Origin: Rhodopirellula europaea 6C
Lineage (GTDB): Bacteria; Planctomycetota; Planctomycetia; Pirellulales; Pirellulaceae
Assembly: GCF_000338295.1 (NCBI RefSeq)
Contig: NZ_ANMO01000168.1
Coordinates: forward strand, 1-64,000
Reading direction: 5' to 3'
Length of the DNA stretch: 64,000 nt
Part shown: positions 8,582 to 59,718 of the stretch, one piece after another
How positions within the stretch are numbered: the stretch's first letter is position 1
How the letters are laid out: every line of letters starts with the position of its first letter
The notes under the pieces: generated by a model
The model's input: only the letters and a program-made list of their open reading frames with translations
What the model was told of the DNA's origin: nothing
Databases searched by the model: none
Program-made: the position numbers and the translations under genes

Positions 8582-8693
8582 CCGACACAACAGCTGCCAA
8601 ACCGTTCGCGTCACGCGACTCGACGACCGCAACGCGATGAGGGCGACTGAGCCGATTGCTTGAAGCCGTATCCGGGCAGGGCAGGGCGGTGGT

Positions 8694-9431
8694 TCAATCG
8701 GCCACTTCCCAGCCTTTCTTGGTCAGAATCAATTCCACTGATTCATCCACTTTTTTCGCTTCCAGACCATCGACTCGAAACGTGGTTGGAAAACAGCGTT
8801 TCATGCTGACGGTGGTTCGAGGCGGCATCTCGATTTCATCGACACTTTCATTGGTTTCGATCGAAAGAGTCTGGACCTTGCCTGATCGGTTCAACACCGA
8901 AATTTCGATCTGAGCCGATTTGGGACGGCCAAATAAATGGACGGCGTAATAGGTCGTTTGATCGGCCGTCGCGACAGCGGCCCCTGTTTGCGTGATGTGT
9001 TTGGCCACGATGTTCTCATGGTGCGGCGGTGAATCGATCCATCCCTGAACGAAGATGTCAATCAAACTCTTCGCGGTGACTTCGCCGGTGTTAGTACGAT
9101 AAGCAATGTTCTCTCGAACGACGCAGTACTCGTATCCAGCCGCCTTCGCACGCTCGGCGGGCGTGTTGCCATCCGCGCGGTGGCCATACTTGCCCGACTC
9201 CGCCATAAACTCCGCGAATTTCTTCGCGGTCGCCTGCAGCTCGTCGTTCACTTCCAGTTGACTGAGCTCCTTCTTTTTGCGGTAGTCGTTGATTTGCTTG
9301 ACGATTGCGTTTTCCACTTCCGCAACCATTTCGCTATCGCTTTCCGACTCAACGGAGACCGCCGTCGATCCCTCTTGAGCCACCAACGGACCGACAAACA
9401 ACAAACATCCAAACATCAACCAACCACGCAC
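8694..9431 (-). CDS. Secreted CAP-domain (SCP/PR-1, YkwD-like) protein
   Basis: The 245-residue protein has a signal peptide (MRGWLMFGCLLFVGPLVAQ) and a CAP domain at about residues 40-165. Family marks visible are AIVKQINDYRKKKEL, the His in KYGHRADGNTPAERA, RENIAY, and GWIDSPPHHENI, which supply the usual His/Glu cavity residues. Bacterial CAP proteins are exported and their activity is mostly undefined. A C-terminal beta-rich extension of about 75 residues (from LNRSGKVQ) has no recognised family. It converges with yidC, and the KOPS-like octamers at 8674-8686 sit directly behind its stop. Confidence 0.88.
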   Translation of the reverse strand: MRGWLMFGCLLFVGPLVAQEGSTAVSVESESDSEMVAEVENAIVKQINDYRKKKELSQLEVNDELQATAKKFAEFMAESGKYGHRADGNTPAERAKAAGYEYCVVRENIAYRTNTGEVTAKSLIDIFVQGWIDSPPHHENIVAKHITQTGAAVATADQTTYYAVHLFGRPKSAQIEISVLNRSGKVQTLSIETNESVDEIEMPPRTTVSMKRCFPTTFRVDGLEAKKVDESVELILTKKGWEVAD

Positions 9432-9667
9432 CGCATCACTCCTGATAGAGAATTTGAACCGAAAACCGAATCGCCCGATAAGCAGCGTGATGCAATCGTC
9501 ATGCCTAATTTTCCGGCGTCTGCTTCGTCACGGCACCGCTCGATGCCAATCGGGCGCAACAAGCGATTCCCTTCGTCTTCATCGAGCTGGTAAAACGTGT
9601 CGCAATCCTGGTTTTCGGCGAACCCTTCGCTGTGCCACTCACTGATTTGACACCGTCCCGACTCAGC

Positions 9668-10408
9668 ATGCGAATCCAAGCTCCCTCCTTCGTCGATCTC
9701 GAAACGCCCACCGGTCCGATGCGGACGCATTTGTTTCGTCCGGACGGCTCCGGCCGTTATCCCGGTGTGATTCTCTACAGCGAGATCTACCAAATGACGG
9801 CTCCGATCGCCCGTACCGCAGCCGTGCTGGCGGGACACGGTTTGCTGGTCGCCGTTCCGGATGTCTATCACGAGTTCACCGAACTGGGCGAGTCGTTCGC
9901 CTACGACAAAGAGGGCACCGACCGCGGCAACCGCTTGAAGATCGAAAAGGAAATTACCGCCTACGATGCCGACGCTCGATCCGTCATCGACTTCTTCGGC
10001 GGTGACGAAGGCTGCACCGGAAAAGTCGGCACGGTCGGCATCTGCCTGGGCGGGCACTTGGCATTTCGTGCGGCGATGAATGAGGAAGTCGATGCCGGAG
10101 TCTGCTTCTATGCGACCGACATTCACAAACGAAGTCTCGGCAAAGGGATGAACGACAACAGTCTCGATCGCATACCTGAGATTGAGGCCGAGATGCTGAT
10201 GATCTGGGGCCGGCAAGACCCACACATTCCCGCCGAAGGACGGCGAATGATTTACGACGCGATGACCGCGGCCGGCGTCAGTTTTTCCTGGCACGAGTTC
10301 AACGGCGAGCATGCTTTCATGCGAGACGAGGGGCATCGCTATGACCCAGAACTCGCCCTGCTGCTCAACTCCATGGCGTGCCAGCACCTCAACCGCCACC
10401 TGCGATAG
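9668..10408 (+). CDS. Dienelactone hydrolase family protein
   Basis: This alpha/beta-hydrolase has the Cys-Asp-His triad of dienelactone hydrolases: Cys in VGICLGGH (about residue 130), Asp in WGRQDPHIP and His in FNGEHAFMRDEG. DLH enzymes open dienelactones in catechol degradation, but many bacterial members act on other esters, so the substrate is uncertain. ATG 9668 (246 residues, MRIQAPSFVDLETP) fits the family start; GTG 9632 would add 12 residues. It is divergent from the CAP gene, and no aromatic-degradation genes lie nearby. Confidence 0.87.
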   Translation: MRIQAPSFVDLETPTGPMRTHLFRPDGSGRYPGVILYSEIYQMTAPIARTAAVLAGHGLLVAVPDVYHEFTELGESFAYDKEGTDRGNRLKIEKEITAYDADARSVIDFFGGDEGCTGKVGTVGICLGGHLAFRAAMNEEVDAGVCFYATDIHKRSLGKGMNDNSLDRIPEIEAEMLMIWGRQDPHIPAEGRRMIYDAMTAAGVSFSWHEFNGEHAFMRDEGHRYDPELALLLNSMACQHLNRHLR

Positions 10409-10605
10409 CGGCCGAGAAAACGAATTCATCGCCGATTGGCGATCCCGCCTGGCAATTTGGGGTTGGATGGAAAATCGTCCCACTTACGAATGAGCGACGA
10501 TCGCGTATCCTTTGCGGTTCGTTTTCGCGAAATTCGGAACCTTCCACCAACCCCTGATGGATCGTCCCGTAGCTTTCTTCCCCTCGAACCCTTTGATTTC
10601 GACCC

Positions 10606-12384: not shown

Positions 12385-12417
12385 TCGCGGACTCGCATCG
12401 ATCCATTTGCCCAGCTC

Positions 12418-12470
12418 ACCTCGTTGGTTCGCCAACCAATTCTTGCTACAAACGTTGGTTGGAGCGAGGT
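12418..12470. promoter_or_regulatory. Nested, mutually exclusive hairpins upstream of the permease
   Basis: ACCTCG (12418-12423) pairs with CGAGGT (12465-12470) and CCAACCAA (12432-12439) with TTGGTTGG (12455-12462). CCAACCAA could instead pair locally with the TTGGTT just upstream. Two exclusive folds between aspS and an amino-acid permease resemble an attenuator, but no leader peptide was identified; it may simply be the aspS terminator. Confidence 0.4.
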
Positions 12471-12574
12471 CAGAGCAGGGCAGGGCGGTCGTGCGTTCAC
12501 TGCTGTCGGACCTCGCCGATTGAATCTCTTTTCCATCGACGGATCGCATCATCGCCGCTAATCGCCACCTCGGT

Positions 12575-15393: not shown

Positions 15394-15400
15394 CCGCTTT

Positions 15401-19645: not shown

Positions 19646-20701
19646 ATGCGTCCTGACCAACCTACCCGATCGCTCAGCAACCGCCGCCAATTCCTCCGCC
19701 GCCTCGGAATCACTTCCGCCGTTGGTTACGCCGCGTACTTGGCCCACCAAGTCAGCCCCTCGCCACTGAGCACCGACGCCAATGGATTGCTGGGGAAGGG
19801 CAGGGCACTTTGGGCAGCCGAAACGAGCGAAGCAACATCGGAAACCAGCGGCGGCTACCTGAAGCAGTCTCTGAAAGCCGGCATGATCCGGGCCGGTAAG
19901 TCCGACGCAGCCAACCCTTGGATCGAACGGTTTCGAATCGCCAAAGACGCCGGCTTCGAAGGCGTCGAACCCAACACGTCACCTGGTATGGACGTCAAAG
20001 CGATGGTCGCCGCGTCGGCGGAAACCGGTTTGACGATCGACGGAACCGTCGGTGGCTATCACTGGGGAACAACACACACGAGTCCCGATGCAGCAACTCG
20101 CAAGAAAGCTCAACAGTTACTCGAAGAGTCGCTGCAGCAGACCGCCGACTTGGGCGCCAACACTTTCCTAATCGTTCCGGGGCATGGCAAAGACGGCACG
20201 GCCGAAGAAGTCCGCCAACGAGCTTTCGAAGCTCTTGATCGCGCCGTTCCGCTCGCCGAAAAGCTCGGCGTCAAAATCTTGATCGAGAATGTTTGGAACC
20301 ACTTCCTCTACGATCACGGTGGAGACGAAAAGCAATCGGCTCAACCACTGGCAGATTTCGTCGACTCGTTCAACACATCTTGGATCGGTGTCCAATTCGA
20401 TCTTGGCAACCACTGGAAGTACGGCGATGTGGCCGAGTGGGTGAAGACTTTGGGACATCGCATCGGCAAGCTGGACATCAAAGGCTTTTCGCGTGAAAAG
20501 GGTCGCTTCACCGACGTTACCGAAGGCGATATCGATTGGGCGAGCGTCCGAAAGGCACTCGCTGAGATCAAGTTTGAAGGCTGGGTCGCGGCGGAAGTCG
20601 GCGGTGGCGACGCGGAACGACTGAAGAAGATTCACGGCCAAATTGAAACCGCCTTGCATTGCTCAAAATCGCTATCACAAATCAAGGCGGAGACCGCGTG
20701 A
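19646..20701 (+). CDS. Tat-exported sugar phosphate isomerase/epimerase family protein
   Basis: The 351-residue protein has a twin-arginine signal (NRRQFLRRLGITS) and a xylose-isomerase-like TIM barrel (AP endonuclease 2 superfamily). Putative metal ligands are Glu in KILIENVWNHF, Asp in VQFDLGNHW, and Glu in WVAAEVGGG. Planctomycetes have many such secreted isomerase-like proteins, with substrates mostly unknown. ATG 19646 puts the Tat motif about 15 residues in; TTG 19607 would lengthen it and overlap ybgC. The last bases overlap the rsmH start (GTGA), so the two genes are coupled. Two GGGNAGGG octamers (19793-19805) fall in the post-signal linker. Confidence 0.85.
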   Translation: MRPDQPTRSLSNRRQFLRRLGITSAVGYAAYLAHQVSPSPLSTDANGLLGKGRALWAAETSEATSETSGGYLKQSLKAGMIRAGKSDAANPWIERFRIAKDAGFEGVEPNTSPGMDVKAMVAASAETGLTIDGTVGGYHWGTTHTSPDAATRKKAQQLLEESLQQTADLGANTFLIVPGHGKDGTAEEVRQRAFEALDRAVPLAEKLGVKILIENVWNHFLYDHGGDEKQSAQPLADFVDSFNTSWIGVQFDLGNHWKYGDVAEWVKTLGHRIGKLDIKGFSREKGRFTDVTEGDIDWASVRKALAEIKFEGWVAAEVGGGDAERLKKIHGQIETALHCSKSLSQIKAETA

Positions 20702-22906: not shown

Positions 22907-24778
22907 ATGGCTTCGTTGTTCGTCATTCGAGGACGTGACCAAGGAAAACACTTCCAGCTCGCACCGACGGTCACGCGACTGGGACGTGAATCCAGCAACA
23001 ATGTGCAGTTGCTCGACAACGAGGCTTCGCGAAGCCACGCCGAAATTCGCGGTGACGGCACCGGACGTCGTTACGAACTGGTCGACCTGGGCAGCAGCAA
23101 CGGCACACTCGTCAACAATCGCAAGATCACACGCCACGTTCTGACCAGTGGCGATCGGGTGGAAATCGGTTCGACGCTGCTGATTTTTACCGGCACCGGC
23201 AACGTGTCTGCTCTCGATGCGGCTCACGGCGTCGACATCGTTCGCCAAGTCCGCGGAGGCGATGCCAGCAACATCGTTTCTTCGCTGTCTCGCGAAGGCG
23301 TCGTCTCGCCATACACACCGGGTGGCTCTTCATCCAACAGCCCATCAACCGATAAACCCGCGACCTCGCCGACGACTCTGCCGCCACCAATCCCGCCACC
23401 CATCGAGAATCAACCAGCGCCGTCTCGCGACCAGGAGGTCGATTCCTCGGCATCGGATTCGGATACACATGGTCAATTCCACGGGCCGCCGGTCATCGGT
23501 CGACTCGATGCAGACCGCTCGCTGGAAGTCATGTATTTGACCGCGATCGCGGTCGGACGGACTGACGACCTAGACGAGGTTTTGGATCGCGTCCTCAAGT
23601 TGGTCTTTGACTGGGTCGAGGCTGATCGCGGATGCATCATGCTTCGCGACCCGGAATCCAAACGACTGACGCCGGCCGCACGCTGCGATCGGGAATCGGC
23701 GACTGATGCAACGAAACAAAAACCTTCGTCCAAACCGCAAGACCGTATCCAAATCAGCCATACGATTTTGGATTACGTGCTGCAACACAAACAGGGCGTT
23801 CGCACAAACGACGCACTTGATGACGAACGGTTTGATTCCGCCGCGTCGATTGTTCAAGGCGGAGTTCGCGAAGCCCTCTGCGTTCCGTTGCAGGGTCGAT
23901 ACGAAATCGTTGGCATGCTTTACGTCGACACCTACACCACACCTGGAGAACTGGTTCGGAAAGGTGGCGCGACACGATTCCATGACGAACACCTTCGATT
24001 GATTACCGCTGTTGGACACCAAGCCGCACTCGCTATTGAAGACACGTTCTACTACTCGGCTCTGTTGCAGGGCGAACGTTTGGCTGCGATGGGCCAAACG
24101 ATCGCCACGCTTTCACACCACATCAAAAACATCCTGCAAGGCGTCCGAGGCGGAAGCTATCTGATCGAATCGGGACTGCAGAAAGATGACACCGATGCGA
24201 TCCGTCGAGGTTGGTCCATCGTTGATCGCAACCAAGAACGAATCAGCAACCTTGTGCTTGACATGCTGACGTTCTCAAAAGAACGCGAACCGGAACTACA
24301 AGATGGCAACCTTAACGAAGTTGTGAGCGACGTGGTCGAACTCATGCAGAGCAGGGCAGGGCAGAGCGAAATTGAACTCGCTTCTGACCTAGATTCGACG
24401 TTGCCGATCGCCACCTTTGATAGCGAAGCGATTCACCGAGCCGTGCTGAACTTGGTCACCAACGCGATCGATGCCGCCACCAAGACGGTGCTAGTGAAAA
24501 CGTTTTACGATGCGGCCCAGGGCTGGATCGTCGACGTGGAAGACGACGGCGAAGGCGTTCCCGAAGAAGACCGCGAACAGATCTTCTCGCTGTTTGAGTC
24601 CAAAAAAGGTGCTCGTGGAACCGGCCTCGGATTGCCCGTCAGTGCAAAAGTGCTGCGTGAGCATGGAGGCACGTTGACCGTCGATGACGCGGCAAGTGGC
24701 GGAGCTCGTTTCCGAATGATCTTACCGGCCACCGGAACTGATATTAGCGAGCTATCACGCAGCGAGACGCAAGCTTAA
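22907..24778 (+). CDS. FHA-GAF sensor histidine kinase
   Basis: The 623-residue kinase combines an N-terminal FHA domain (about residues 20-95, RLGRESSNNVQLLDN, SRSHAEI and GSSNGTLVNN), a Pro/Ser linker, a GAF domain (about 200-385) and a histidine-kinase core. The phospho-accepting His is in the H-box LSHHIKNILQG (about 400). The ATP lid has the N-box NLVTNAIDA, the G1 box DDGEGVPEED and the G2 box GTGLGLPVS. There is no membrane segment, so it is cytoplasmic and may read phosphothreonine signals from Ser/Thr kinases. ATG 22907 (MASLFVIRG) matches the FHA start. No response regulator is adjacent. Confidence 0.9.
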   Translation: MASLFVIRGRDQGKHFQLAPTVTRLGRESSNNVQLLDNEASRSHAEIRGDGTGRRYELVDLGSSNGTLVNNRKITRHVLTSGDRVEIGSTLLIFTGTGNVSALDAAHGVDIVRQVRGGDASNIVSSLSREGVVSPYTPGGSSSNSPSTDKPATSPTTLPPPIPPPIENQPAPSRDQEVDSSASDSDTHGQFHGPPVIGRLDADRSLEVMYLTAIAVGRTDDLDEVLDRVLKLVFDWVEADRGCIMLRDPESKRLTPAARCDRESATDATKQKPSSKPQDRIQISHTILDYVLQHKQGVRTNDALDDERFDSAASIVQGGVREALCVPLQGRYEIVGMLYVDTYTTPGELVRKGGATRFHDEHLRLITAVGHQAALAIEDTFYYSALLQGERLAAMGQTIATLSHHIKNILQGVRGGSYLIESGLQKDDTDAIRRGWSIVDRNQERISNLVLDMLTFSKEREPELQDGNLNEVVSDVVELMQSRAGQSEIELASDLDSTLPIATFDSEAIHRAVLNLVTNAIDAATKTVLVKTFYDAAQGWIVDVEDDGEGVPEEDREQIFSLFESKKGARGTGLGLPVSAKVLREHGGTLTVDDAASGGARFRMILPATGTDISELSRSETQA

Positions 24779-30181: not shown

Positions 30182-31030
30182 TCAGGCTTCTTCTGACGAA
30201 GCCGCCTCTGTTTTCGCATTGGCAATTCCGCTGGCGATCAAACCAGCGAAGTAGCCGCCTTTGAATCCCGCATCGATGTTGACCACCGCAACATTCGCGG
30301 CACACGACGTCAGCATGCCCATCAATGGGGTCAGGCCGGCAAAATTGGCTCCGTAACCGGTGCTGGCGGGAACGGCGATCACGGGAGTGGCCACGTGTCC
30401 GGCCAACGCCGCCGGCAGAGCGCCTTCCATTCCTGCGACCACCACAATGGCGGCGGCCGCTCGCAATCGAGGAACCGCGGCCAACAAACGTTGAGGCCCG
30501 GCGACTCCGATGTCGTCGATGCGTTCGCAAGCGACCCCCATCCAGGACAAGGTCTCAGCGGCTTCTTCCGCCACGTGAGCATCGGTGCTGCCCGCAGTGA
30601 CGACGGCAACATGAGTGGAGTGGCCTTCGATACCGATTGGGTCCAAATTTTCATCCCCGCAGCCAATTCTCAGCGTGCGGGCGGAGGGGTTGTACCGAGT
30701 GTTATCGAAAACTCGCCGCAACTGAGCCGCCGCGGTCGCGTCGATTCGCGTGATCAAACACCCTTGGCCGACAGCGACCTGAGTTTGCACGATCTGGGTC
30801 ATCAGATCGGTCGATTTCCCCTCACCGTAGATCACTTCGCCAAATCCACAGCGGGTAAGACGCCCCAAATCGACCGTTGCACCGGGAATCGTTTGCATGT
30901 CCGTACCCGCCCCGATCGAGCTGGCCTGGATAGATTCCGCCGCGGCTTCCACGTCGGTTTGCCCCGAAGCGAGGTCCTGCAGAATCTGCAGCAGGGCTGG
31001 GGAGGGGGGTTGATTGGAGGGTTGGTTCAT
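30182..31030 (-). CDS. larB: Nickel-pincer cofactor biosynthesis protein LarB
   Basis: LarB carboxylates and hydrolyses nicotinic acid adenine dinucleotide in making the nickel-pincer nucleotide of lactate racemase. The PurE-like fold covers residues about 125-260. Marks seen are LTRCGFGEVIYGEGK, VVTAGSTDAHVAEEAAE, GMEGALPAALAGH and PVIAVPASTGYG. At 282 residues it is close to the family's length. No larC, larE or larA is in the window, so the pathway must be elsewhere. It is convergent with the potassium channel (13 bases between stops). Confidence 0.88.
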   Translation of the reverse strand: MNQPSNQPPSPALLQILQDLASGQTDVEAAAESIQASSIGAGTDMQTIPGATVDLGRLTRCGFGEVIYGEGKSTDLMTQIVQTQVAVGQGCLITRIDATAAAQLRRVFDNTRYNPSARTLRIGCGDENLDPIGIEGHSTHVAVVTAGSTDAHVAEEAAETLSWMGVACERIDDIGVAGPQRLLAAVPRLRAAAAIVVVAGMEGALPAALAGHVATPVIAVPASTGYGANFAGLTPLMGMLTSCAANVAVVNIDAGFKGGYFAGLIASGIANAKTEAASSEEA

Positions 31031-32482: not shown

Positions 32483-33406
32483 TCAAGGTTGAGTGGACGC
32501 CCATTCGTCCAGCACATCGTCCGATAGGGGCTCACCTCCCGACGGAGTGATCAACGCTTGGACGGTCAACGGTGGCGTTGTATCCGGCAAAAAGTACCCG
32601 CTGCCTTCCACCGTCGCGACACAGACGCCACCATCGGTTGCTCCCCCGAGTCCCTTTCCCGAAGGCGGGTTGATGAGGCCGCCGATCGACCCAACATCCA
32701 AGTCATAGGGCTCCATCCACGATTCGGTCATGCTGTTCATCTGGCCCTCGGCCAGCAGGATCGTCTTCGTCGCGCCATCGGTCACCTGCCGAGGTCCCAA
32801 CGGTCCGGTACTAGGGAATAACGTCCCGGCACCAGTCACCAAGTGATAGACCGTGCCCGTGCCCCAACTGTTGCTCTCCGGATGCCGATAGACCGACGGC
32901 GTTTGGCTGTAGAGAAGCATTTGGTTTTCGCCCTCATTCCAGGGAACATCCTTGTCGATCTGGTTGTACAAACCGTCCTCACCCAGATACGGCAGAATGG
33001 TCACCCGCCACGAGTGCAGCTTCCGCCCTGCGGCATCCACCGTGTACGGGGCAGGGTAGACGCCATGATCGGCAGCGTACGCATTCAGTGCCGTCGCGAT
33101 CGTCTCCAGGTTTTTGATGCTGCTTAAACGCTGGCGGCCCGTGCGTATTTTCTTGGCCGTCCGGCTGCCAACCTGGATCGCCGCGATCAAACCGGCTCCG
33201 ACCAGCAGCAACGCCAATCCGGCCGCGACAAACCAAATCGCCGATTTGTTGCGTTTGCCAGGCCGATTTCCCATCCGCCGCGAGCCAGCGAACTCGGGCA
33301 TCGTGATTTCGCGACCGCATACGACACAGTCGCCCGTGCGACCGCTGTATTCATCTTCCACCTCGGTTTGCGATTGGCAGTGTGGGCAAGTGAACAGAAA
33401 CGTCAT
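32483..33406 (-). CDS. Zinc-ribbon DUF1559-like membrane protein
   Basis: The 307-residue protein has an N-terminal four-cysteine ribbon ([11 protein letters not shown] ... CVVCGREI), a membrane helix at about residues 55-80, and an outer domain resembling planctomycete DUF1559: [20 protein letters not shown], then [26 protein letters not shown], and [13 protein letters not shown]. Normal DUF1559 proteins begin with a prepilin-like GFTLIE helix; here that is replaced by the ribbon plus helix, so it is a rearranged relative. The function of the family is unknown. It converges with argG. Confidence 0.82.
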
Positions 33407-33960: not shown

Positions 33961-34875
33961 TTATCGCTGGGGCAGGGCAGGGGGCCAATTCGGTCGAGCA
34001 ACTCTTTGCCCCATTCCCGGCTGAAGCGCGCCGGGCTGCGTCGCGCCAGGTTGAACCTGTGACGGCAAACCAAAGTTGGAAGGCGACTCCTGCGGTGATG
34101 TCACTCGCGGTTGCCACTGTGGCGGCTCACGAGATTCCCACGGTGCGAACAACGACGGATTGGTGTAGTCCGGATTGATCTCATCCTGGCTGGGAACCGC
34201 ATAGCGATCGCGATCCATTCGCACACGCTGGCGAAGCCGGTCCAAAATTTCGTGATCGCCCCAGGCCAAATACGTGAACAGCCCGAGCTGACCCCAAACG
34301 AAGATGTTGGCCAGCGGACTGCTGCCAAAGAATTTCAACGCCGTGCCAAACGATTTCTTCACTCGCATCGAGCCACGGCTGAAATCCAAGGACCAAATCT
34401 CATCCAAGATCAAATGGGTCAAGAAACCAACCAGCACAGCGCAGGATTTGTAGACCCGAACCGCTTCGCTGGCGCATGGCATCGCCATGTATGCGATCAG
34501 TCCCGCGACCAGCGCCGCGGGGATGCTGTGCCACATGCCTCGGTGAACCGTGAACTTGCGGAATCCCTCCACGGCAACAAATCGAATCGCGATGTAAACG
34601 ATCATCGCCGCCAGCGCCATCGCTTCGTGTGACAGCCCCAAGTCTCGCCAACGATCGATCATCAGCATCGGTACGACCGCCGCCAAAAACAGACTCGTTT
34701 CGCGAAGCGGCACGCCAGAATCGCTGTCCAAATCCGGCAACATCCCCGAAACGCTGCACAGCCCACCGGCCAGCAGCGCACTCTCCATCGACATGCCTTG
34801 GTCGAACACGCCCCAATATCCATAGGCGCATCCGACAACGGTGCTCGTCGAGATATGGGTTTTGAAGCCAGCCAA
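33961..34875 (-). CDS. YdjM/DUF457-like membrane protein
   Basis: The protein (304 residues from TTG 34875) resembles membrane-bound metal-dependent hydrolases of the YdjM/DUF457 family. It begins GFKTHISTSTVVG and has about five membrane helices. The His/Asp-rich loops SGMLPDLDSDSG, HRGMWHSIPAA and LTHLILDEIWSLD carry likely metal ligands. A Pro/Gln-rich tail of about 70 residues follows. A longer frame from GTG 34956 exists, but the added part is not conserved and contains the octamer at 34907. Two GGGNAGGG octamers overlap the last codons before the stop. Confidence 0.8.
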   Translation of the reverse strand: MAGFKTHISTSTVVGCAYGYWGVFDQGMSMESALLAGGLCSVSGMLPDLDSDSGVPLRETSLFLAAVVPMLMIDRWRDLGLSHEAMALAAMIVYIAIRFVAVEGFRKFTVHRGMWHSIPAALVAGLIAYMAMPCASEAVRVYKSCAVLVGFLTHLILDEIWSLDFSRGSMRVKKSFGTALKFFGSSPLANIFVWGQLGLFTYLAWGDHEILDRLRQRVRMDRDRYAVPSQDEINPDYTNPSLFAPWESREPPQWQPRVTSPQESPSNFGLPSQVQPGATQPGALQPGMGQRVARPNWPPALPQR

Positions 34876-35203
34876 TGAAACGCGAACGGGAAGGAGGCGA
34901 CGGGCGGGGAAGGGCGGTCCGACAAAATTTTCCCGAGACACCAACCGCCAAACCACAAAGGCCCCAAACTACGAGGGCGGAGCAGGGCGGTCGCGCACCG
35001 AGAACCATTGGCGTTACCAAATTCAGGCCCCCGCCCGCCACCGGAAATTTTTGATCCGCCAATCGAGCCCCTGCCCCAGACGAGGCCCCATCGCCGGATG
35101 CCCGCCACCGGCTCCCCAAAAAAATTGCTGTTCGCCCTGCCCCTTCCATTTTGCTACAAGCGTCAAAACGGTCCGAATCCGTTGCAGCGGTGAAATTGCG
35201 CTC

Positions 35204-36001
35204 ATGCAGACTTACGACATTCTGATGACGGTCATCCTGGTCGGCGCAACCTTGTTGGGCGCGATTCGCGGATTTGCATGGCAACTCGCCTCGATCGCTT
35301 CCATCGTTGTCAGCTATTGCGTCGCGTACCACTATCGCGAACCATTCAGTCAGAACATTCATGCTGCGCCGCCTTGGAATCAATTCCTGGCAATGTTCAT
35401 CCTGTTCGTCGGGACGTCGTTCGTCATCTGGGTCGCGCTGCGAATGGTCAGCGGAATGATCGACCGAATGCGACTGAAAGAATTCGACCGCCAGATCGGA
35501 GCTCTGTTTGGACTCGCCAAAGGAGCACTCTTGTGCACGATCATCACGCTCTTCGCGGTCACACTTTTTGGTGAAAGAACTCAGCGAGCGATCGTCGCCA
35601 GCGAAAGCGGCCGCCTGATCGCTCGTGTCCTCGCCGAGTCCAATTCGATCATGCCACCAGAACTGGACAGCGTCGTTCGCCCGTATCTGGATCAGTTCAG
35701 CGACGAAGAACTGGGCGAGCCATCGGGCTCGGAAGGATCCTGGCTCTCGCAATCTCAGGTCGCACCGAACGCAAATCCAAATTGGTCGCATTCGAACGTT
35801 CAACCGGCGAACAATTTCGCGCCGCAAAACGGCTTTGAACAAGCCCAAAATGCCGCGCGATCACAGCCGCCATTTAGTGGCTTTGGCGGAAGCCCAACAC
35901 CGACGTCCAACCCGGATTTCAACTCCGCCGCGGGCTCACAACAGCAGGCTCCGACATGGCGTCAATCCGCGACGCCGCAGTGGCAAACGCCGCGTCGCTG
36001 A
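35204..36001 (+). CDS. CvpA-family membrane protein
   Basis: The 265-residue protein has the CvpA arrangement of four membrane helices (about residues 5-25, 28-48, 62-85 and 105-125) starting QTYDILMTVILVGATLLGAIRGFAWQ in parts, with the conserved RGF. CvpA proteins are linked to colicin V export and envelope homeostasis in other bacteria. The C-terminal 100 residues are a low-complexity Gln/Asn/Pro/Ser tail. ATG 35204 gives the family start; the open frame upstream is not conserved. It is convergent with accA. Confidence 0.8.
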   Translation: MQTYDILMTVILVGATLLGAIRGFAWQLASIASIVVSYCVAYHYREPFSQNIHAAPPWNQFLAMFILFVGTSFVIWVALRMVSGMIDRMRLKEFDRQIGALFGLAKGALLCTIITLFAVTLFGERTQRAIVASESGRLIARVLAESNSIMPPELDSVVRPYLDQFSDEELGEPSGSEGSWLSQSQVAPNANPNWSHSNVQPANNFAPQNGFEQAQNAARSQPPFSGFGGSPTPTSNPDFNSAAGSQQQAPTWRQSATPQWQTPRR

Positions 36002-36339
36002 CCGCCCGCTGATCTTCCGCTTGGCGACGACCGAGCGTCAGTGAAACGATCGCGATCTCGGATTCGCGAAGACGGCGAACGATCGGGGCGGGGCATCCTT
36101 CAGATTGCCAGCACCCAGCGATCCCGAGCGTCACGAAACCAAAGCCCAGACGCAGAAAACGCCTGAAACACGTGTTTTACGCACCTCGAATACAACATAA
36201 GGGGCATTATCGGACGTTGCGGGGCGGTCGAAATCCGCCCTGATTCGCCGTGCGAGTCCCATTTGCATCCGACCGTCCCAGCCAACATCCGGTCACCGAG
36301 ATGTTCTCTCGGCGACCGAAACTTCCACTCGTGTCGGCC
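36002..36339. other. Convergent intergenic region holding candidate dif
   Basis: These 338 bases lie between the stops of cvpA (plus) and accA (minus). They contain the candidate dif site (36190-36217) and an inverted repeat GGGCGG / CCGCCC (36222-36227 and 36235-36240). ORFs crossing the region lack conserved features. Confidence 0.6.
36190..36217 (-). other. Candidate chromosome dimer resolution site (dif)
   Basis: Read on the minus strand, the 28 bp consist of a XerC-type arm ACGTCCGATAA, a 6-bp centre TGCCCC and a XerD-type arm TTATGTTGTAT. The XerD arm shares TTATGTT and the final AT with E. coli dif. The XerC arm shares CCGATAA with actinobacterial dif as I recall that consensus. It sits in a convergent intergenic region about 1.1 kb from the octamer strand switch. 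The identity is inferred from arm similarity, spacing and location. Confidence 0.75.
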
Positions 36340-37299
36340 TCAGCTTTCTTCCAAGAAGACTCCGAGCCGGCGGAATTTTTCGTAGCGTTGCTCGAGCATT
36401 TGATCGACCGGCATCTCTTCCAATTCAGACAGCTGCCGCGACAGATAAGTCTTCATCCGAGTCGCCATTTGATGGTGGTCACGATGAGCGCCACCGAGCG
36501 GTTCTTCGAGGACATCATCGACGACACCGAGACGCAACAAATGGTCGCTCGTGAACCGAAGAGCGGCGGCCGCTTTGGGCGCGTGTTCGTGACTCTTCCA
36601 CAGAATGCCGGCACAGCCTTCCGGGCTGATGACGCTGTAGTAAGCGTGCTGCAAAACCGCGACTCGATCGCCGACACCGATCCCGAGAGCACCACCAGAC
36701 CCGCCTTCGCCAATCACGACGCAGATGACCGGCGTTTTCAGATCACTCATCATGAACATGCTTTCGGCGATCACTTGCGCCTGCCCACGTTCCTCGGCAC
36801 CGATCCCTGGATACGCTCCCGGCGTGTCAATGAAACAAATGACCGGCAAGCGATATTTCTCGGCCATTTTCATTTTCACCATGGCCTTGCGATAACCTTC
36901 CGGATGAGCGCAACCAAAGTGACAAGCCGCACGTTCCTTGTAGGTCCTACCTTTTTGGTGACCGATCACCATGACCTTGAATCGATCCAGTTTCGCGAAG
37001 CCCGACAGCATCGCGCGGTCGTCGCCAAAGTGCTTGTCACCGTGCAATTCGACAAATTCGTCAAACGCTAAGTTGAGGTAATCACGCGTGTAAGGACGGT
37101 TTTTATGACGAGCCACTTGGACCGTTTGCCAAGGGTCCAACGATGAGTACGTCTCTTTCAGTTTGGCAACACGCGCCAAACGCAACGATCGAATCGCTGA
37201 GTCAATTTCTTCACTGCGATCAGTGTTCCGTTCCAGCGAAGCGATTTGCTCCTCCAGATCCGCGATCTCATTTTCGAATTCTAATCCGGGTCCGGCCAT
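36340..37299 (-). CDS. accA: Acetyl-CoA carboxylase carboxyltransferase subunit alpha
   Basis: AccA, with AccD, transfers the carboxyl group from biotin to acetyl-CoA to make malonyl-CoA for fatty-acid synthesis. The 319-residue length is typical. Marks are VELHGDKHFGDDRAMLSG, MVIGHQKGR, HPEGYRKAMVKMKMAEKY in parts, FIDTPGAYPGIGAEERGQ and GEGGSGGALGIGVGD. It starts at ATG 37299, three bases after the stop of an upstream Ser/Thr kinase gene, so the two are probably one transcript. Confidence 0.95.
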   Translation of the reverse strand: MAGPGLEFENEIADLEEQIASLERNTDRSEEIDSAIRSLRLARVAKLKETYSSLDPWQTVQVARHKNRPYTRDYLNLAFDEFVELHGDKHFGDDRAMLSGFAKLDRFKVMVIGHQKGRTYKERAACHFGCAHPEGYRKAMVKMKMAEKYRLPVICFIDTPGAYPGIGAEERGQAQVIAESMFMMSDLKTPVICVVIGEGGSGGALGIGVGDRVAVLQHAYYSVISPEGCAGILWKSHEHAPKAAAALRFTSDHLLRLGVVDDVLEEPLGGAHRDHHQMATRMKTYLSRQLSELEEMPVDQMLEQRYEKFRRLGVFLEES

Positions 37300-38247: not shown

Positions 38248-38489
38248 CGAGCGGCTGGGGCTTTGTCGGAAACGGGACGATCGAGTTGAACGATCAAAAC
38301 GATTTTGTGGCCTCGCATGATAGTCCAACCGCCCCCACAGCCGAAAGACGTGTGCCCGGCCCCGTAAATCGCCTGGCGGGAGGCGGGATACCGCCATGGG
38401 AAACGGCGTCTCAACTCGCCACTACCCTGCCCTCCTATCGGTTCACCAACCCAGCGTCCAATGCGGGACCGCTCGAGGCAAAGCCCCAC

Positions 38490-39734
38490 TCAGTGGGTAG
38501 AGATCAGATCCGCATACAGCTCGCGGATCCGTCGAGTCATCGTTTCGTGCCGGAACAGGTCGGTGAATCGAGATCGCCCTTCCTGGCCCATTCGCTGGCG
38601 AAGCTCTTGATCGCCAACCAAACGGATCATTCGGTCCGCCAAATCAGCGACCTGCCCTGCCCCAACCAAATACCCCGTTTGGTCATCGATCACGACTTCT
38701 CGAGCTCCATCGATGTCATAGCTGATCGCCGGCCGCCCAGCGATCAATGCCTGAGGCAACGCTCGAGCCAGTCCTTCTCGGTAGGACGCGTGAACCAGGA
38801 TGTCCATCGCACCAATCATGGCAGGAACCTCTGTCGGAGGAACCAAGCCGGTGAAGATGAAGTGTTCCTTCAATCCCAGCGACTCGATTTGCTGTTCCAG
38901 CTCTGCTCTCAGGATCCCATCTCCGACCAACAGAAACCGAACGTTGGGATGCCGATCCGCAACCAACTTGGCTGCAGGAACCAAGTCAGCGTGACCTTTC
39001 AAATGAAACAGTCGAGCAATCTTGCCCACCACAACATGCTCGTCTCGCAGACCGTATCTTTGTCGAACAGCCTCGCGGTGATCCACCGCATGAACGAATG
39101 GATCGACATTCATTCCGCTGTGAATCGTCACAAACTTTTCGCGAGGTGCGACGCCCGCATCCACCATCAGATCCGTCATCGCGTCGGCAACGGAAATCAG
39201 CTTGTGGCAACGCGAAGCGGCCCATCGTTCACAACGGACAAAGAAGTCATGAGCCATCTTGTATTGGTACTTATGAAACGGCGCACCGTGAACCGTGTGG
39301 ACGACAACGGGACGTTTGCCAGTGGAGGTTCGCTTCAGCCCCCATCCCACATGCCGGCCTAGCAGCCCACCTTTTGCACTGTGCGTGTGAACGACATCCG
39401 GATCAAAGTCCAGCAGAGTCCGCCGCAGATCACGCGAGGCATTCCAGTCATGAACCGGATGAATTGCCCGACGCAGCGAATCAATCAATTCAATTGGCAG
39501 TCCGTCCAGATCGAACCGCCCTGCCCTGCCCTTCGCTTCGTTCGCCGAATCATCAATGTCATCCTCGTTGGTGCGAACACGTTTGGAGAGCAAGTCTCCT
39601 TCCGGTCCAACAGCGGGCCCGGTAACGAGCAAGACCTCGTCCCCATGAAGGTGAACGAGGTCCTGGCAGTTGTGCAGCGTGTTTTCTTGCGCACCGCCAA
39701 TGATCATTCGGGTGATCACATGGGCGATACGCAT
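38490..39734 (-). CDS. GT4-family glycosyltransferase
   Basis: The 414-residue enzyme is a GT-B glycosyltransferase of family 4. It starts RIAHVITRMIIGGAQENT and has VVHTHSAKGGLLGR, GKIARLFHLKGH, FLLVGDGILRAELE, and the family EX7E region YREGLARALPQALIAGRPA. The donor and acceptor are not predictable. Eight bases separate it from the fliA stop, so it appears to belong to the flagellar transcript; flagellin glycosylation is possible but unproven. GGGNAGGG octamers fall at 39519-39531 in a variable linker and at 38655. Confidence 0.9.
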   Translation of the reverse strand: MRIAHVITRMIIGGAQENTLHNCQDLVHLHGDEVLLVTGPAVGPEGDLLSKRVRTNEDDIDDSANEAKGRAGRFDLDGLPIELIDSLRRAIHPVHDWNASRDLRRTLLDFDPDVVHTHSAKGGLLGRHVGWGLKRTSTGKRPVVVHTVHGAPFHKYQYKMAHDFFVRCERWAASRCHKLISVADAMTDLMVDAGVAPREKFVTIHSGMNVDPFVHAVDHREAVRQRYGLRDEHVVVGKIARLFHLKGHADLVPAAKLVADRHPNVRFLLVGDGILRAELEQQIESLGLKEHFIFTGLVPPTEVPAMIGAMDILVHASYREGLARALPQALIAGRPAISYDIDGAREVVIDDQTGYLVGAGQVADLADRMIRLVGDQELRQRMGQEGRSRFTDLFRHETMTRRIRELYADLISTH

Positions 39735-41130: not shown

Positions 41131-42522
41131 TTAGGCCGCCTCGCCGTAGTGCAAAGATTCGTACCCGTCCATTGTTTCAAATCCCATCTCCCCCAATCCA
41201 GCCGTAGGCATGTGCGGCAACAATTGTGCCACCAGACCCGAAGCGTCAGCCACGGCGATGTCATCGGGGACTTGCTGACCATTGGTCAGATAGCTCAGCG
41301 GCGGCGCGACGATGCGATCACGCCCCGTCAACGCAGCCAACACAGATGCCATACAAGGTGTCTCATCAAGCTTGGTCAGCGTGACCGCGTTGGCTCGCAC
41401 TGGGGCGAAACCTTCTAGCGTCGTTCGAATGTTTTCACCCGAACTGGTCGCACTGAGAACCAAGTGTGTTTCGTCTGGATGTGCCGCTCGCAGAAACTCA
41501 GAGAGCTGTTCGATGCGGGCATCACTTCGCGGGCTGCGGCCGGCGGTATCGATCAAAACCAGATCGACATCCCCCAGTGCACTCAGCGCCGTTTCCATCT
41601 GTTCGGGTTTCTCAACAACTTGCATTGGCAAGTCCATGATCTCGGCGTAAGCCTTCAGCTGCTGGACCGCCGCGATTCGGTATGTGTCAATCGTTAGCAA
41701 ACCAACCCGCCGACGAGCTTCGATGCGGAAACCTGCCGCCAGCTTGGCTACCGTGGTGGTCTTGCCAACGCCTGTCGGTCCAACCAACGCGACCACATGA
41801 CGGTCGCCAGGCTGAGTTCGAATTGGTCCACACAAGTTCAGCTCTCGTGCCACTGCTCGCTGCAGATGTTCCATCCAACGCTGGTCCGACTGCACCGCAG
41901 ATTCAGAATTCGCGATTCCCGCTGCAAAGCTGGACGCCGAAGCCATCCATCTGCGAGCGGTGGCTTCTTCCACTCCAGCTTGAAGTAACCGCAACGAAAG
42001 CGAATCCGCAGGACTCAGCTCTCCAGATGCGTAGCCCGCACCATAGAAACCGCCCTGCCCTGCCCCATGGCTTGCGTTGGCAGGACCAGAATTCCCGGTG
42101 CCTGACGACAGTTGGTGTGACGGGTCATAGTTGTGATACGCCGCGTCAACAGGATTCTGCCCCGGGGAAACGGGTACTCCGCCGGGATTGATTGTGCCGG
42201 CGTTGAGATTAGGTGTCCCCGTTGGCGACGTGCCATAACCGGAGGATGCCGCCACGGAATTGACCGAACGGACATCAGCGGGCTGTAGCGGTTCGTCCGC
42301 GTAGTTTGCTGGAACGCGACTGCCGGAAGCATCGTGCGAAGTTCCATCCGCAGGACCACTGTGCAATCCCGCAGTGACTTCCACATGAGTCCGGCCAAGC
42401 CAGCCCATCCAGCCATTGCGGACCTGCCGCGTATGAAGCACGGAAGCTTCCGGGCCCATTTGCTCTCGGATGTCTGCAAGGGCTGCTTGCAGATTCGCTG
42501 CTCGAAAAGTTCGGATATGCAT
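41131..42522 (-). CDS. flhF: Flagellar biosynthesis GTPase FlhF
   Basis: FlhF is an SRP-type GTPase that sets flagellar number and placement. The 463-residue protein has the FlhF N-terminus (HIRTFRAANLQAALADIRE), a Gly/Ser/Pro-rich middle (residues about 60-175, holding octamers at 42053-42065), and the GTPase with LVGPTGVGKTTTVAKLA (about 245), LTIDTYRIAAVQQLKAYAE in parts, LIDTAGRSPRSD and LTKLDETP. ATG 42522 overlaps the flhA stop by one base; a TTG at 42525 is possible. The N-domain activates GTP hydrolysis in other FlhF. Confidence 0.94.
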   Translation of the reverse strand: MHIRTFRAANLQAALADIREQMGPEASVLHTRQVRNGWMGWLGRTHVEVTAGLHSGPADGTSHDASGSRVPANYADEPLQPADVRSVNSVAASSGYGTSPTGTPNLNAGTINPGGVPVSPGQNPVDAAYHNYDPSHQLSSGTGNSGPANASHGAGQGGFYGAGYASGELSPADSLSLRLLQAGVEEATARRWMASASSFAAGIANSESAVQSDQRWMEHLQRAVARELNLCGPIRTQPGDRHVVALVGPTGVGKTTTVAKLAAGFRIEARRRVGLLTIDTYRIAAVQQLKAYAEIMDLPMQVVEKPEQMETALSALGDVDLVLIDTAGRSPRSDARIEQLSEFLRAAHPDETHLVLSATSSGENIRTTLEGFAPVRANAVTLTKLDETPCMASVLAALTGRDRIVAPPLSYLTNGQQVPDDIAVADASGLVAQLLPHMPTAGLGEMGFETMDGYESLHYGEAA

Positions 42523-47996: not shown

Positions 47997-48275
47997 GAAA
48001 TGCCGGGTTGCGATGGGAATCCAATGCATTCCACCTGTCGTCGATGCGTTTGACCGGCTGGCAGGCCGCCCCGCCCGACTCGTTCGGCAGAATCCAACCC
48101 TGCAGGGTAAACACTGGCCCATCGCCCAACAACTCTTCCGCCACGGAAATCTGTCCCCATGGAATCCATTCCGGGTCTTGATACGATTGGCCGCTGGATT
48201 GGGCGAAGACCACCGCCCTGCCCTGAACATCTACCCGCTCTGAACATCTAATCGCCTTCTACCCGCGACGAGCCC

Positions 48276-52168: not shown

Positions 52169-52318
52169 TCAAGATCCGTCTGAAATCATCGGAATCCATC
52201 CGAGCCCGCGTCTCTGCGCGACTGGCTCAGCCGGCCGATATCGTAAACCCTTCCATTTCGGGCCGAAATGCCGATGTCACCATCCATCGCCTGATTTGTG
52301 CCCTTGCAAGAGACCAAA

Positions 52319-53755: not shown

Positions 53756-53785
53756 TTTCAACGAGCAACTGCCTGTCAACGCAAA

Positions 53786-53818
53786 GATCTCGCCGGTTCG
53801 CATGGCACCGGCGAGATC
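53786..53818. terminator. Perfect hairpin between purB and porin gene
   Basis: GATCTCGCCGGT (53786-53797) pairs with ACCGGCGAGATC (53807-53818) around a 9-nt loop. It lies between convergent stops at 53755 and 53846, where a bidirectional terminator is expected; neither side has a long U-tract. Confidence 0.7.
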
Positions 53819-53845
53819 AAGCTTCTCTCTTGAATAGTCCGTTTC

Positions 53846-56890: not shown

Positions 56891-57456
56891 TGCTTTCTCC
56901 GTTGATATCCCAATCCAATTGGGTCGTTTCGTGTCACCAAGATTCAAAATGGATGCTGTTCGAACGGGAAGCTGTGCCCCCACAATTAGGGAGGGCCGAT
57001 CTCTCGCTCTCAACGATGAAACAAACGCAGTCCATCGCTCTTTCAACGCACACGCTGCCTGCCGCCGATGGCACATCGAAACTTTCAGGCAATCGCTTCG
57101 GAATTCGAATCAATCACCTCGAGAAATTTCGAGTGAGTTGAAAGCAATCCATCATGTCGTCGGGAGAATTCATCGGTGGGTTAGCGGGATCTGTCCTCAA
57201 CCGGTGCACAAAACGACTTAGAAACCGCCCGCGAGGTGCGCAACGCGCCTATTGATCCTCATCTGCGGGTCGCTCTCAACGTTCCAGCTGGGCAAACTTT
57301 GACGCTTCCCACTCCGAACACGCCCCGCATCTGAAAATCCTGCTTTCAATAAAACGTTCCACCCGCTATCCTGCGGGGCTTCTCCCTGAAACCAGGGATT
57401 TTGACCGTCTCAAACCACATTCATGACAATCACCGCGAGCGGTGGCGGAGAATCAG
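56891..57456. other. Divergent intergenic region with possible rpmB promoter
   Basis: These 566 bases separate the porin and rpmB starts. A possible promoter for rpmB is TTTCAA (57344-57349), 17 bases, TATCCT (57367-57372). After it lies TCCCTG (57383-57388) paired with CAGGGA (57393-57398) before TTTT, a small leader hairpin. ORFs crossing the region overlap the porin antisense and lack family features. Confidence 0.4.
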
Positions 57457-57729
57457 ATGGCACGACAGTGCGAAGCGTGCGGCAAAAAAGTCCAAATGGG
57501 CAACCGTATCGAAACCCGGGGTAAAGCGAAGTACTTGGGCGGTGTCGGTACCAAGATCACCGGCTGTACCCGCCGTAAATTTGTCCCCAACTTGCAAAAA
57601 GTTCACGTGACATTGCCAAACGGCACCAATAAATCGATGCGAGTTTGCACGCAGTGCATCCGCAGCGGTGTCGTTCGCAAAACGGTGAAAACCAAACCAT
57701 TTGACGTCAGCGGCAGCAAAAAGTCCTGA
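57457..57729 (+). CDS. rpmB: Ribosomal protein L28, zinc-binding form
   Basis: This 90-residue 50S protein has MARQCEACGKKVQMGN and the late pair VCTQCIRSG, giving two CxxC-type pairs that suit a zinc ribbon. The central RKFVPNLQKVHV is the conserved L28 core. ATG 57457 is set by GGAG seven bases upstream; an in-frame ATG at 57442 is less likely. It overlaps gatC by one base (TGATG). Confidence 0.95.
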   Translation: MARQCEACGKKVQMGNRIETRGKAKYLGGVGTKITGCTRRKFVPNLQKVHVTLPNGTNKSMRVCTQCIRSGVVRKTVKTKPFDVSGSKKS

Positions 57730-58052
57730 TGTCCAGTTCCGGCAACGGCAGCGGTGGTTCGGTCGACATCCAAAAATTGGCTCGACTGGCTCGACTTCAG
57801 CTTACGGAGCAGGAGCAAACCGATTTTGGTCCGCAAATCACGGACATCCTCGGTTTCGTTGAACAATTGTCCGAACTCGACACCTCCGGTGTCGAGCCGA
57901 TGACGAGTGCGCTGGACGTCGAAAACTGCTTCCGCGACGACGCTCCCGACCAAAGCCTGTCATCCAAAGCGGCGACACGCACGGCTCCCGCCTCTCAAGA
58001 CGGCACGTTTTTGGTACCACCAGTCCTGGGAAACACTTCTTCCAAGAAGTGA
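57729..58052 (+). CDS. gatC: Asp/Glu-tRNA amidotransferase subunit C
   Basis: GatC stabilises the GatCAB complex that converts Asp-tRNA-Asn or Glu-tRNA-Gln by transamidation. The 107-residue protein has VDIQKLARLARLQLTEQE, FVEQLSELDTSGVEPMT and RDDAPDQSL, all conserved. ATG 57729 overlaps the rpmB stop by one base. gatA is not immediately downstream; the next gene is on the other strand. Confidence 0.94.
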   Translation: MSSSGNGSGGSVDIQKLARLARLQLTEQEQTDFGPQITDILGFVEQLSELDTSGVEPMTSALDVENCFRDDAPDQSLSSKAATRTAPASQDGTFLVPPVLGNTSSKK

Positions 58053-58257
58053 AGCGTCACGAGTAGGACTCCCGACAAAGATTCGATCCCAGAACCCTGC
58101 GAGTGCCGGGCGGAAACCACCGCTGCCAATCGATACGCAAGCACTTTCATCAGAAAGCCTTGCAAATGAGAGAGACGCGCGGATATCAAAAAATCCGGCT
58201 CAGCTACCAACTAAACGGAACGACGCTCGGACGGCCATTGGATACGAACCCAACCGG

Positions 58258-59718
58258 CTACAGATCGACAACCGTGTCGCTTGCCGAATCGTCTTGATGC
58301 TTCCGCAACTGCTCCATCGCTGCCAAAGTCGCATCGCAATACGATGACACGGCTGTCCCCCAGGCCTGTTCCTTTGTGGCCTGGCGGGCTTGTTGCAACA
58401 ACTGGTCGACATCCTGCCAATCCAACATCCAATTTCGCTCTTCAGAAGTCTGGCGAAGCTGGGTGATCACATCGTCCATGCGAAGCAAGAACGCTTCATG
58501 CGAATTGGCCCTGAATCGGCGGTAAGGCCCGGTCCCCAACGCGGTTTCTCCGCTTCCGATATCGAGCGATTCACCCGAATCCCAAGGACCACCGCTCCCC
58601 GCCGGATCGCCTGAACCACCCTGCCCTGCCCCAGGCATGCCGGGCATCCCAGGAACAGGTGACGAGCCACCTGCCGAACTCCGGTCTCGAACACGACGCG
58701 TTTTCAGTGGCCGCCTGCGTTCATTCGGCTTGAACACACCGCTCGCCCATACCGCGGCTGAGATCGACCCCAGTATGAATGCGACGATTGCCGAGCCCAC
58801 GAACCGCGGACTGACCAAAGCTGCCGCCAATCCAAAACCGACCGCTCCCGTCCAACAGAACGCGGTGGTCGCAATCAACGCCCGCGAGGAAACCTCATCC
58901 GCTCCCAGAGAGCGGGACTTTCGAGGTGCTCCATTGTTCTGAGTTAAATGCTCATCATCAACTTCGACAACGATCAAAGTGATGTTGTCTGGACCGCCCC
59001 GCAGATTGGCCAGATCGATCATCACCCGTGCCGCTTTATCGACATCGAGCGAATCCAGCAGAACGGCCAATTCGTCGTCTTCGATTTGCCCAGTCAGCCC
59101 ATCGCTGCACACCATGAAGCGATCGCCGACCTCCAGATCAAACGGCCCCTCCAAATCAACCAACACCTCAGGAGAGGGCCCCAACGACCGAGTGATCACA
59201 TTCTTGGGAATCGACTTGCTGAAGACACTGTCGCTGTGAACTTTTCCGCTGGCTTGCATCTCCCAAACCAGCGAGTGATCAAACGTCAACTGCTCCAGCA
59301 CGCCTCGCCGCAGGCGATAAACTCGCGAATCTCCGACGTGTGCCACATAAGCGGCACCGTTGACCAGAACCAGCGAACTGGCGGTCGTTCCCATGTTCAG
59401 GAACTCAGGATTACTTTGTCCGCGTTCGTAAATCGCGGCATTGGCCAGATGCACGGCCTCAGAAATCGCGTGCTCAGGAGCCTCTTCTCGCGATTGGTAG
59501 TAGTGCATCGAAATGCGTTCACTGGCAATCTGCGATGCCAACTCACCGGCCGCGTGGGCTCCCATTCCGTCAGCGACGACGAACAGGTGCCCACGTTGGT
59601 TCAGACGTTCGGCGGACTCAGCGATTAAAACCGCCGATGAATCTTGATTGTTCGCACGTCGCATCCCGACATGGGTCTGCTCAGCGAACTTCACTCCGGG
59701 GCGCCATGAACCTGACAA
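58258..59718 (-). CDS. PP2C-type Ser/Thr phosphatase with membrane and linker region
   Basis: The 486-residue protein has an N-terminal PP2C domain (about residues 7-265): VGMRRANNQDS, VVADGMGAHAAGELAS, VGDSRVYRL, MVCSDGLTGQIEDDE and RGGPDNITLIVVEV, with the metal-binding Asp residues. Two membrane helices follow (about 276-322). A Gly/Pro-rich linker (holding octamers at 58619-58631) then leads to a helical C-terminus (about 425-475). Such phosphatases oppose Hanks-type kinases, of which two are in the window. The start is ATG 59718. Confidence 0.92.
   Translation of the reverse strand: MSGSWRPGVKFAEQTHVGMRRANNQDSSAVLIAESAERLNQRGHLFVVADGMGAHAAGELASQIASERISMHYYQSREEAPEHAISEAVHLANAAIYERGQSNPEFLNMGTTASSLVLVNGAAYVAHVGDSRVYRLRRGVLEQLTFDHSLVWEMQASGKVHSDSVFSKSIPKNVITRSLGPSPEVLVDLEGPFDLEVGDRFMVCSDGLTGQIEDDELAVLLDSLDVDKAARVMIDLANLRGGPDNITLIVVEVDDEHLTQNNGAPRKSRSLGADEVSSRALIATTAFCWTGAVGFGLAAALVSPRFVGSAIVAFILGSISAAVWASGVFKPNERRRPLKTRRVRDRSSAGGSSPVPGMPGMPGAGQGGSGDPAGSGGPWDSGESLDIGSGETALGTGPYRRFRANSHEAFLLRMDDVITQLRQTSEERNWMLDWQDVDQLLQQARQATKEQAWGTAVSSYCDATLAAMEQLRKHQDDSASDTVVDL

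Follow-up and report, generated by a model that had tools for sequence, protein, structure and literature searches.

A polar array of KOPS-type octamers around a dif-type site in Rhodopirellula europaea and its relatives

FtsK-orienting polar sequences (KOPS) of model bacteria are words of the leading strand (PMC5357621), and known dif sites lie close to the point at which GC skew shifts, within 1.4% of the genome (one sigma) and at most 3% (PMC3025954). A dif survey failed for the Planctomycetes, for which one genome was tried (PMC3025954), and a literature search, mostly of papers available without subscription, returned no report of KOPS or dif in planctomycetes. FtsK is of particular interest in these bacteria: Planctopirus limnophila divides without FtsZ, and while three of the usual division genes were dispensable, ftsK appeared essential (PMC6952346). 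With the dif site and the conserved KOPS array now described, a testable function can be proposed for this essential gene. The subject of this work is a stretch of 64,000 nucleotides from Rhodopirellula europaea 6C (contig NZ_ANMO01000168.1, positions 1 to 64,000 of the forward strand), called here the window, in which octamers matching the degenerate KOPS pattern GGGNAGGG change strand close to a 28-bp dif-type site.

Octamer polarity and the dif-type site

The original prediction, made from the letters of the window alone, was that 22 octamers of the GGGNAGGG type switch strand perfectly, and this proved exact: all 11 matches at 8674–34914 are on the plus strand and all 11 at 35069–58631 on the minus strand, with the switch at 34914–35069. 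Chance level was set by 100 dinucleotide shuffles of the window, which hold a mean of 5.38 and a maximum of 14 matches. Nineteen of the 22 octamers are GGGCAGGG (the other three are at 19793, 30999 and 34907) and 12 belong to six pairs which overlap with a 5-bp step. When all 6-, 7- and 8-mers were scanned for a switch at 35 kb, GGGCAGGG was the top 8-mer (8 plus and 0 minus to the left, 0 and 11 to the right) and GGGCAGG the top 7-mer (9/0 and 0/17). The best 8-mer z value in the window was 4.36, compared with a mean of 3.12 and a maximum of 3.74 in 60 random flips of 1-kb blocks. The source genome (7.19 Mb in 273 contigs) carries 482 GGGNAGGG and 213 GGGCAGGG, or about 4.3 and 1.9 per 64 kb, and the window, with 22 and 19, is therefore enriched about 5-fold and 10-fold respectively. 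Since GC skew is negative to the left and to the right of 35 kb alike (1 of 32 bins is slightly positive), there is no G/C switch under the octamer switch. A comparison of the window with Rfam found nothing.

The 155 bp between the last plus-strand and the first minus-strand octamer were considered as a candidate for dif and rejected, as they show no dif-like site by eye. The dif-type site lies 1.1 kb to the right of the switch (about 35.0 kb). It was found through k-mers common to 30 loci around homologues of a neighbouring YdjM-type gene, which yielded one conserved block. Two 11-bp arms, ACCGAACATAA and TTATCGGACGT, surround a 6-bp centre with partial inverted symmetry and end in CATAA/TTATG, which is the 28-bp architecture of dif; on the other strand the site reads ACGTCCGATAA, 6-bp centre, TTATGTTCGGT. 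By eye it resembles both the gamma-proteobacterial dif consensus quoted in PMC5993296 and the F. alni (Frankia) site quoted in PMC3025954. This block is present in 34 of 40 loci of the order, taken as 20-kb pieces around YdjM-type homologues. For five of the six others the whole genomes were searched and dif was found elsewhere in each. A looser pattern has exactly one match in every one of 17 genomes, that is, one dif per chromosome, and its reversed control has none.

When the window is scored against dif, 17 GGGCAGGG point toward it and 2 away. The prediction that all octamers point inward thus holds with respect to the switch and fails with respect to dif for the two at 35069 and 35135, because dif is displaced to the right of the switch. 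A set of 55 composition-matched octamers, some of which overlap GGGCAGGG, is unpolar in the window (39 toward, 37 away). Across the 34 loci of the order that hold dif, GGGCAGGG is oriented toward the site in 277 cases and away from it in 11; for GGGCAGG the figures are 322 and 47. The 13-mer GGGCAGGGCAGGG was found in 36 of 40 relatives among the matches listed; its reversed control had 8 matches in all.

The same arrangement extends well beyond the window in G004, a relative of the same genus assembled as a single contig of 7145576 bases, to which the window aligns over nearly its full length (4.40–4.47 Mb, about 88–92% identity). Within 325 kb of the switch, GGGCAGGG counts in G004 are 36+/3− to the left of dif and 0+/43− to the right, and in the 400 kb around dif it is the top 8-mer of all, with 60 copies toward and 2 away (composition-matched octamers, 316 and 211). 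The counterparts of the octamers at 35069 and 35135 are at 4436482 and 4436532, also to the left of dif (about 4437544). Octamer density rises toward dif: 29 GGGCAGGG lie within 50 kb, both sides together, against 1.3–2.4 per 100 kb at distances above 325 kb on the left arm. Successive bands farther out on the left arm give 4+/2−, 12+/3−, 10+/9−, 9+/2− and 3+/4−; on the right, the GGGCAGGGK subset beyond 325 kb gives 6+/22− and the GGGCAGGGM subset beyond 4.76 Mb 5+/36− (count only). From these outer bands, polarity in G004 is strong for about 1 Mb around dif and weak beyond. The polarity expected over the whole genome was accordingly found near dif in G004 and for most listed sites of a second genome, G102 (see below), and fades in the outer parts of G004; an opposite switch, expected at the origin, is at most hinted at near 0.5 Mb in G004 (1+/5− and then 7+/0−).

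Named records with the dif pattern were grouped by record title, which placed 94 of 119 loci (25, from other phyla or unplaced bacteria, were left out). GGGCAGGG is oriented 63 toward and 2 away in 18 Pirellulales-type loci, 12 and 0 in 12 delta or myxobacterial loci, 8 and 3 in 10 acidobacterial loci, 5 and 0 in 6 loci of Phycisphaerae or Kuenenia, and 1 and 0 in 4 Armatimonadota loci. These tallies are not independent of those from the 34 loci because some assemblies are common to both (L203 is the contig of L082 and L262 that of L087), and isolated hits in unexpected taxa carry no weight, since by our estimate about 30 matches to the dif pattern would arise by chance in a collection of that size.

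Candidate proteins for such a system are also encoded. FtsK_gamma (PF09397) occurs once in each of 14 genomes, with 85.7–97.2 bits for a curated cut-off of 30.6. The source-genome domain aligns over 57 residues with the gamma-domain structures of P. aeruginosa and E. coli FtsK in the PDB, among which 2VE9 is a co-crystal with KOPS. It conserves R1289, the position being fixed by anchoring the numbering on R1297 and G1318 of PMC5052618; in E. coli FtsK this residue contacts XerD and its change weakens XerD activation most (PMC5052618). All 11 genomes searched encode two recombinases that match the XerD model with E <1e-92; the best remaining protein reaches 1.7e-55. A further property of these FtsK proteins is the tail that follows the gamma domain: scored in 9 of the 14 loci, it is 29–169 residues long with 37–58% Asp/Glu in eight (L391–L395, L397, L401, L403) and non-acidic (8% Asp/Glu) in L390.

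The array is polar, reverses near a single dif and is conserved in many families, independently of skew and gene strand, and it is accompanied by a gamma domain and a recombinase pair. We are therefore highly confident that the octamers form a KOPS system around a real dif-type site. The proposal that FtsK polarity of the E. coli type extends to planctomycetes is borne out by the site, the domain, the recombinases and the polarity. By analogy with E. coli, the FtsK gamma domain would bind GGGCAGGG in one orientation, and the motor would load on one side of the octamer and so translocate toward dif at 36190–36217. At that site FtsK would pair the dif copies of the two sister chromosomes and activate XerC/XerD, which would resolve chromosome dimers while the last of the DNA clears the division or bud neck.

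Several observations weigh against this interpretation. The octamers at 35069 and 35135 sit between the switch and dif in the wrong orientation, and 6 of the 40 loci are without dif within 20 kb. The composition-matched octamers are themselves polar in the 34 loci (1372 toward, 620 away), although far less so than GGGCAGGG. Polarity is weaker in 36 other, non-Pirellulales, planctomycete loci (49 toward, 10 away) and nearly absent in 8 Negativicutes-type loci (5 and 4). Finally, the DNA-facing loop residue N1296, Asn in E. coli, is Gly in the source-genome gamma domain.

Position of dif relative to origin and skew terminus

G102 is one contig of 6428985 bases, for which GC skew was sampled in 20 pieces of 20 kb. 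Its first genes are a short DnaA gene, dnaN and gyrB, in this order. Skew is positive from 0 to 3.53 Mb (one sample is −0.004 and two at 3.2–3.5 Mb are about zero) and negative from 3.85 Mb, giving one clean pair of changes, from minus to plus at dnaA-dnaN-gyrB and from plus to minus at 3.2–3.85 Mb. Origin and skew terminus are thus opposite each other, the latter at 50–60% of the chromosome, and dif, at 1.957 Mb or 30% from the dnaA-dnaN-gyrB origin, is in the middle of an arm with positive skew on both sides. Among the first 100 of 134 octamers the switch is at dif (30+/3− to the left, 6+/61− from dif to 4.64 Mb) and polarity continues unchanged through the skew terminus; by subtraction, the remaining 34 are 14+/20−. 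Between dif and 3.21 Mb, 36 of 39 octamers are on the lagging strand as defined by skew (one-sided binomial, P = 2e-8). Leading-strand position is, in our opinion, the usual correlate of KOPS more than a mechanistic need; if it is held as defining, the G102 octamers should be called KOPS-like. No DnaA boxes were seen in 5 G102 samples, which is uninformative.

To the left of dif in G004 the skew keeps a negative sign over more than 2 Mb, and to the right over about 0.8 Mb. The main plus-to-minus change is near 2.0 Mb, and from there to dif the octamers are 62+/17−, against the skew. The 20-kb samples show about four sign changes, which suggests old large inversions. In both genomes dif, on which the array is centred, lies away from the skew terminus; the idea that the window surrounds a terminus is thus supported in the sense of dif but not in that of skew, which has no sign change at dif in either. 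As the array is centred on dif in these two genomes, its polarity appears to be kept by selection for direction toward dif and not as a leading-strand by-product.

The distance between dif and the shorter DnaA gene is 15.5–38.7% of the chromosome, and never near 50%, in all 10 complete genomes, the adjacency to dnaN and gyrB which marks this gene as origin having been examined in G102 only. At least two DnaA-domain genes occur in each of 13 genomes, a long one (open frame of 466–694 aa) and a short one (360–426 aa); those of G004 are at C1:890613 and C1:6247093. The longer gene was rejected as an origin mark: it is opposite dif in G004 (49.6%) but 3.5–35% from dif in the other nine complete genomes, and in G102 the neighbour of dnaN and gyrB at the skew origin is the shorter one.

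On balance we favour the view that in the Pirellulales the convergence zone of FtsK is uncoupled from the replication terminus, dif and KOPS being placed about 15–39% from the origin-type dnaA, inside one arm, with the KOPS between dif and the fork-meeting zone on the lagging strand and against replication. This is well supported for G102, supported for G004 and a conjecture for the whole order. Pumping direction would then be an independently selected chromosome coordinate, perhaps suited to FtsZ-less cells in which the chromosome is fully replicated before it is sent through a bud neck; if replication does end before this passage, the pumping centre need not be the point where forks meet. 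Should dif truly be away from where the forks meet, such genomes amount to a natural experiment in which the directions of pumping and of replication, which coincide in model bacteria, are separated.

Some results speak against uncoupling or qualify it. In G004 the shorter DnaA gene (6.247 Mb) and the skew minimum (near 5.4 Mb) do not coincide, and this, with the extra skew changes, indicates that the history of G004 includes rearrangement. Local skew was tested in 33 of the 34 dif loci with up to about 13 kb per side (one flank was too short): 13 are terminus-like, with positive skew to the left of dif and negative to the right (mean 0.0215 against 0.0013), 20 have the same sign on both sides and none is origin-like, so that some coupling of dif and terminus may remain in other families. 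A third genome, G105, gave an ambiguous pattern: samples at 3.20 and 3.50 Mb have skews of +0.035 and −0.045, the sample beside dif (3.738 Mb) has −0.026, and the references at 1.5 and 4.8 Mb are about zero.

The alternative that survives best places the dif of a standard KOPS/dif system at the true terminus, which skew misreports through rearrangements or unequal replichores. Skew shift and dif are normally no more than 3% of the genome apart (PMC3025954), and G004 with its four sign changes, G105 with a sign change 0.24–0.54 Mb from dif and the 13 terminus-like loci all fit it. The clean skew pair of G102, with dif inside a uniformly positive arm, and the position of dif relative to the shorter DnaA gene in every complete genome do not, and we regard this explanation as possible but rather unlikely. 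It is very improbable that the octamers are simply G-rich words which follow leading-strand skew in a window holding the replication terminus, as KOPS of model bacteria would lead one to suppose (PMC5357621) and as the 13 terminus-like loci, with no locus showing the reverse, might suggest. Skew does not change sign at dif in either genome, being negative over at least 400 kb to each side in G004 and positive to each side in G102, the composition-matched octamers of the window lack the polarity of GGGCAGGG, and 36 of the 39 G102 octamers from dif to 3.21 Mb are on the wrong strand for this. Local G/C strand bias, one of the two findings named in advance as able to undo the prediction, is thereby answered: the sign of the skew is shared by the two sides, and matched octamers are much less polar.

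That the 28-bp site is a remnant of integration by a phage or plasmid with a dif-like sequence recalls the presence of the same arms on at least 120 viral-contig stretches, and is extremely improbable given a single copy in 17 of 17 genomes, a YdjM-type gene as its constant neighbour in 34 of 40 loci and an octamer polarity centred there. A polarity arising from codon use and gene orientation that switch here by chance has a negligible probability, for although 28 of the 62 octamers in 400 kb of G004 are sense in genes, the 21 antisense and 13 intergenic ones are still polar, reading frames vary and gene strand has no switch at dif (64+/48− to the left, 66+/55− to the right, by a simple gene caller of our own). 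Chance, a GC-skew artefact and a gene-strand artefact are accordingly rejected as causes of the polarity.

Features of the window and its surroundings

The coordinates of the octamers, the dif-type site and its neighbours are given in Table 1. Homologues of the YdjM-type gene occur in 86 of the 97 genomes of the order, and the gene stays beside dif throughout, both being within 20 kb in the 34 fetched loci mentioned above.

Table 1. Octamers, dif-type site and adjoining genes in the window
Feature	Position	Strand	Remark
Two overlapping GGGCAGGG	8674..8686	+	KOPS-type, pointing right
GGGCAGGG	12478..12485	+	KOPS-type octamer
Overlapping GGGAAGGG/GGGCAGGG	19793..19805	+	Two octamers
GGGCAGGG	24354..24361	+	KOPS-type octamer
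GGGGAGGG	30999..31006	+	Matches degenerate pattern only
GGGCAGGG	33049..33056	+	KOPS-type octamer
YdjM-type inner membrane protein gene (PF04307)	33961..34956	-	Neighbour of dif; landmark, no role claimed
Two overlapping GGGCAGGG	33970..33982	+	3' end of YdjM-like gene; identical 13-mer in G004
GGGAAGGG	34907..34914	+	Rightmost plus-strand octamer
GGGCAGGG	35069..35076	-	Leftmost minus-strand octamer; left of dif, pointing away from it
GGGCAGGG	35135..35142	-	Left of dif, pointing away from it
Colicin V production (CvpA-type, PF02674) gene	35204..36001	+	Adjoins dif; landmark only
dif-type site, 28 bp	36190..36217	+	Between CvpA-like gene and accA; sole dif-pattern match in source genome
accA-type gene (PF03255)	36340..37299	-	Other flank of dif; landmark only
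GGGCAGGG	38425..38432	-	KOPS-type, pointing left
GGGCAGGG	38655..38662	-	KOPS-type octamer
Two overlapping GGGCAGGG	39519..39531	-	Octamer pair
Two overlapping GGGCAGGG	42053..42065	-	Octamer pair
GGGCAGGG	48216..48223	-	KOPS-type octamer
Two overlapping GGGCAGGG	58619..58631	-	Octamer pair

The viral-contig stretches on which the dif arms match exactly (L270–L389) are more numerous than our estimate for chance and could represent phages using host XerC/D at dif. One planctomycete record, L205, has two dif-type matches among those listed, at 2032–2054 and 2113–2135, about 80 bp apart and in opposite orientation.

Comparison with known systems

Architecture imparting sequences (AIMS) are likewise strand-biased octamers which strengthen toward the terminus. 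Studies of AIMS differ in centring on the replication terminus, checked with dif (PMC5993296); a word search of that text did not find planctomycetes named. SpoIIIE/SRS of Bacillus subtilis and KOPS of Lactococcus lactis share with the present array a polar octamer or heptamer read by the gamma domain and oriented to dif (PMC5357621). The motifs there are others, whereas planctomycetes use the proteobacterial octamer in a distant phylum. Vibrio cholerae, with dif1 and dif2, provides a case of KOPS-like GGGNAGGG outside E. coli, and its dif sites, in contrast to those of G004 and G102, are near GC-skew shift points (PMC5357621).

The closest system remains FtsK/KOPS/XerCD-dif of E. coli. In both, GGGNAGGG octamers converge on dif and are denser toward it, and FtsK with a gamma domain, a pair of XerC/D-type recombinases and a conserved R1289 are present. 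The planctomycete array differs in its strong bias to GGGCAGGG with tandem pairs at a 5-bp step, and the arms of dif are different, as is FtsK in several genomes through the acidic tail after the gamma domain. In two planctomycete genomes, moreover, a long distance separates dif from the skew terminus, and some of the octamers are oriented against replication.

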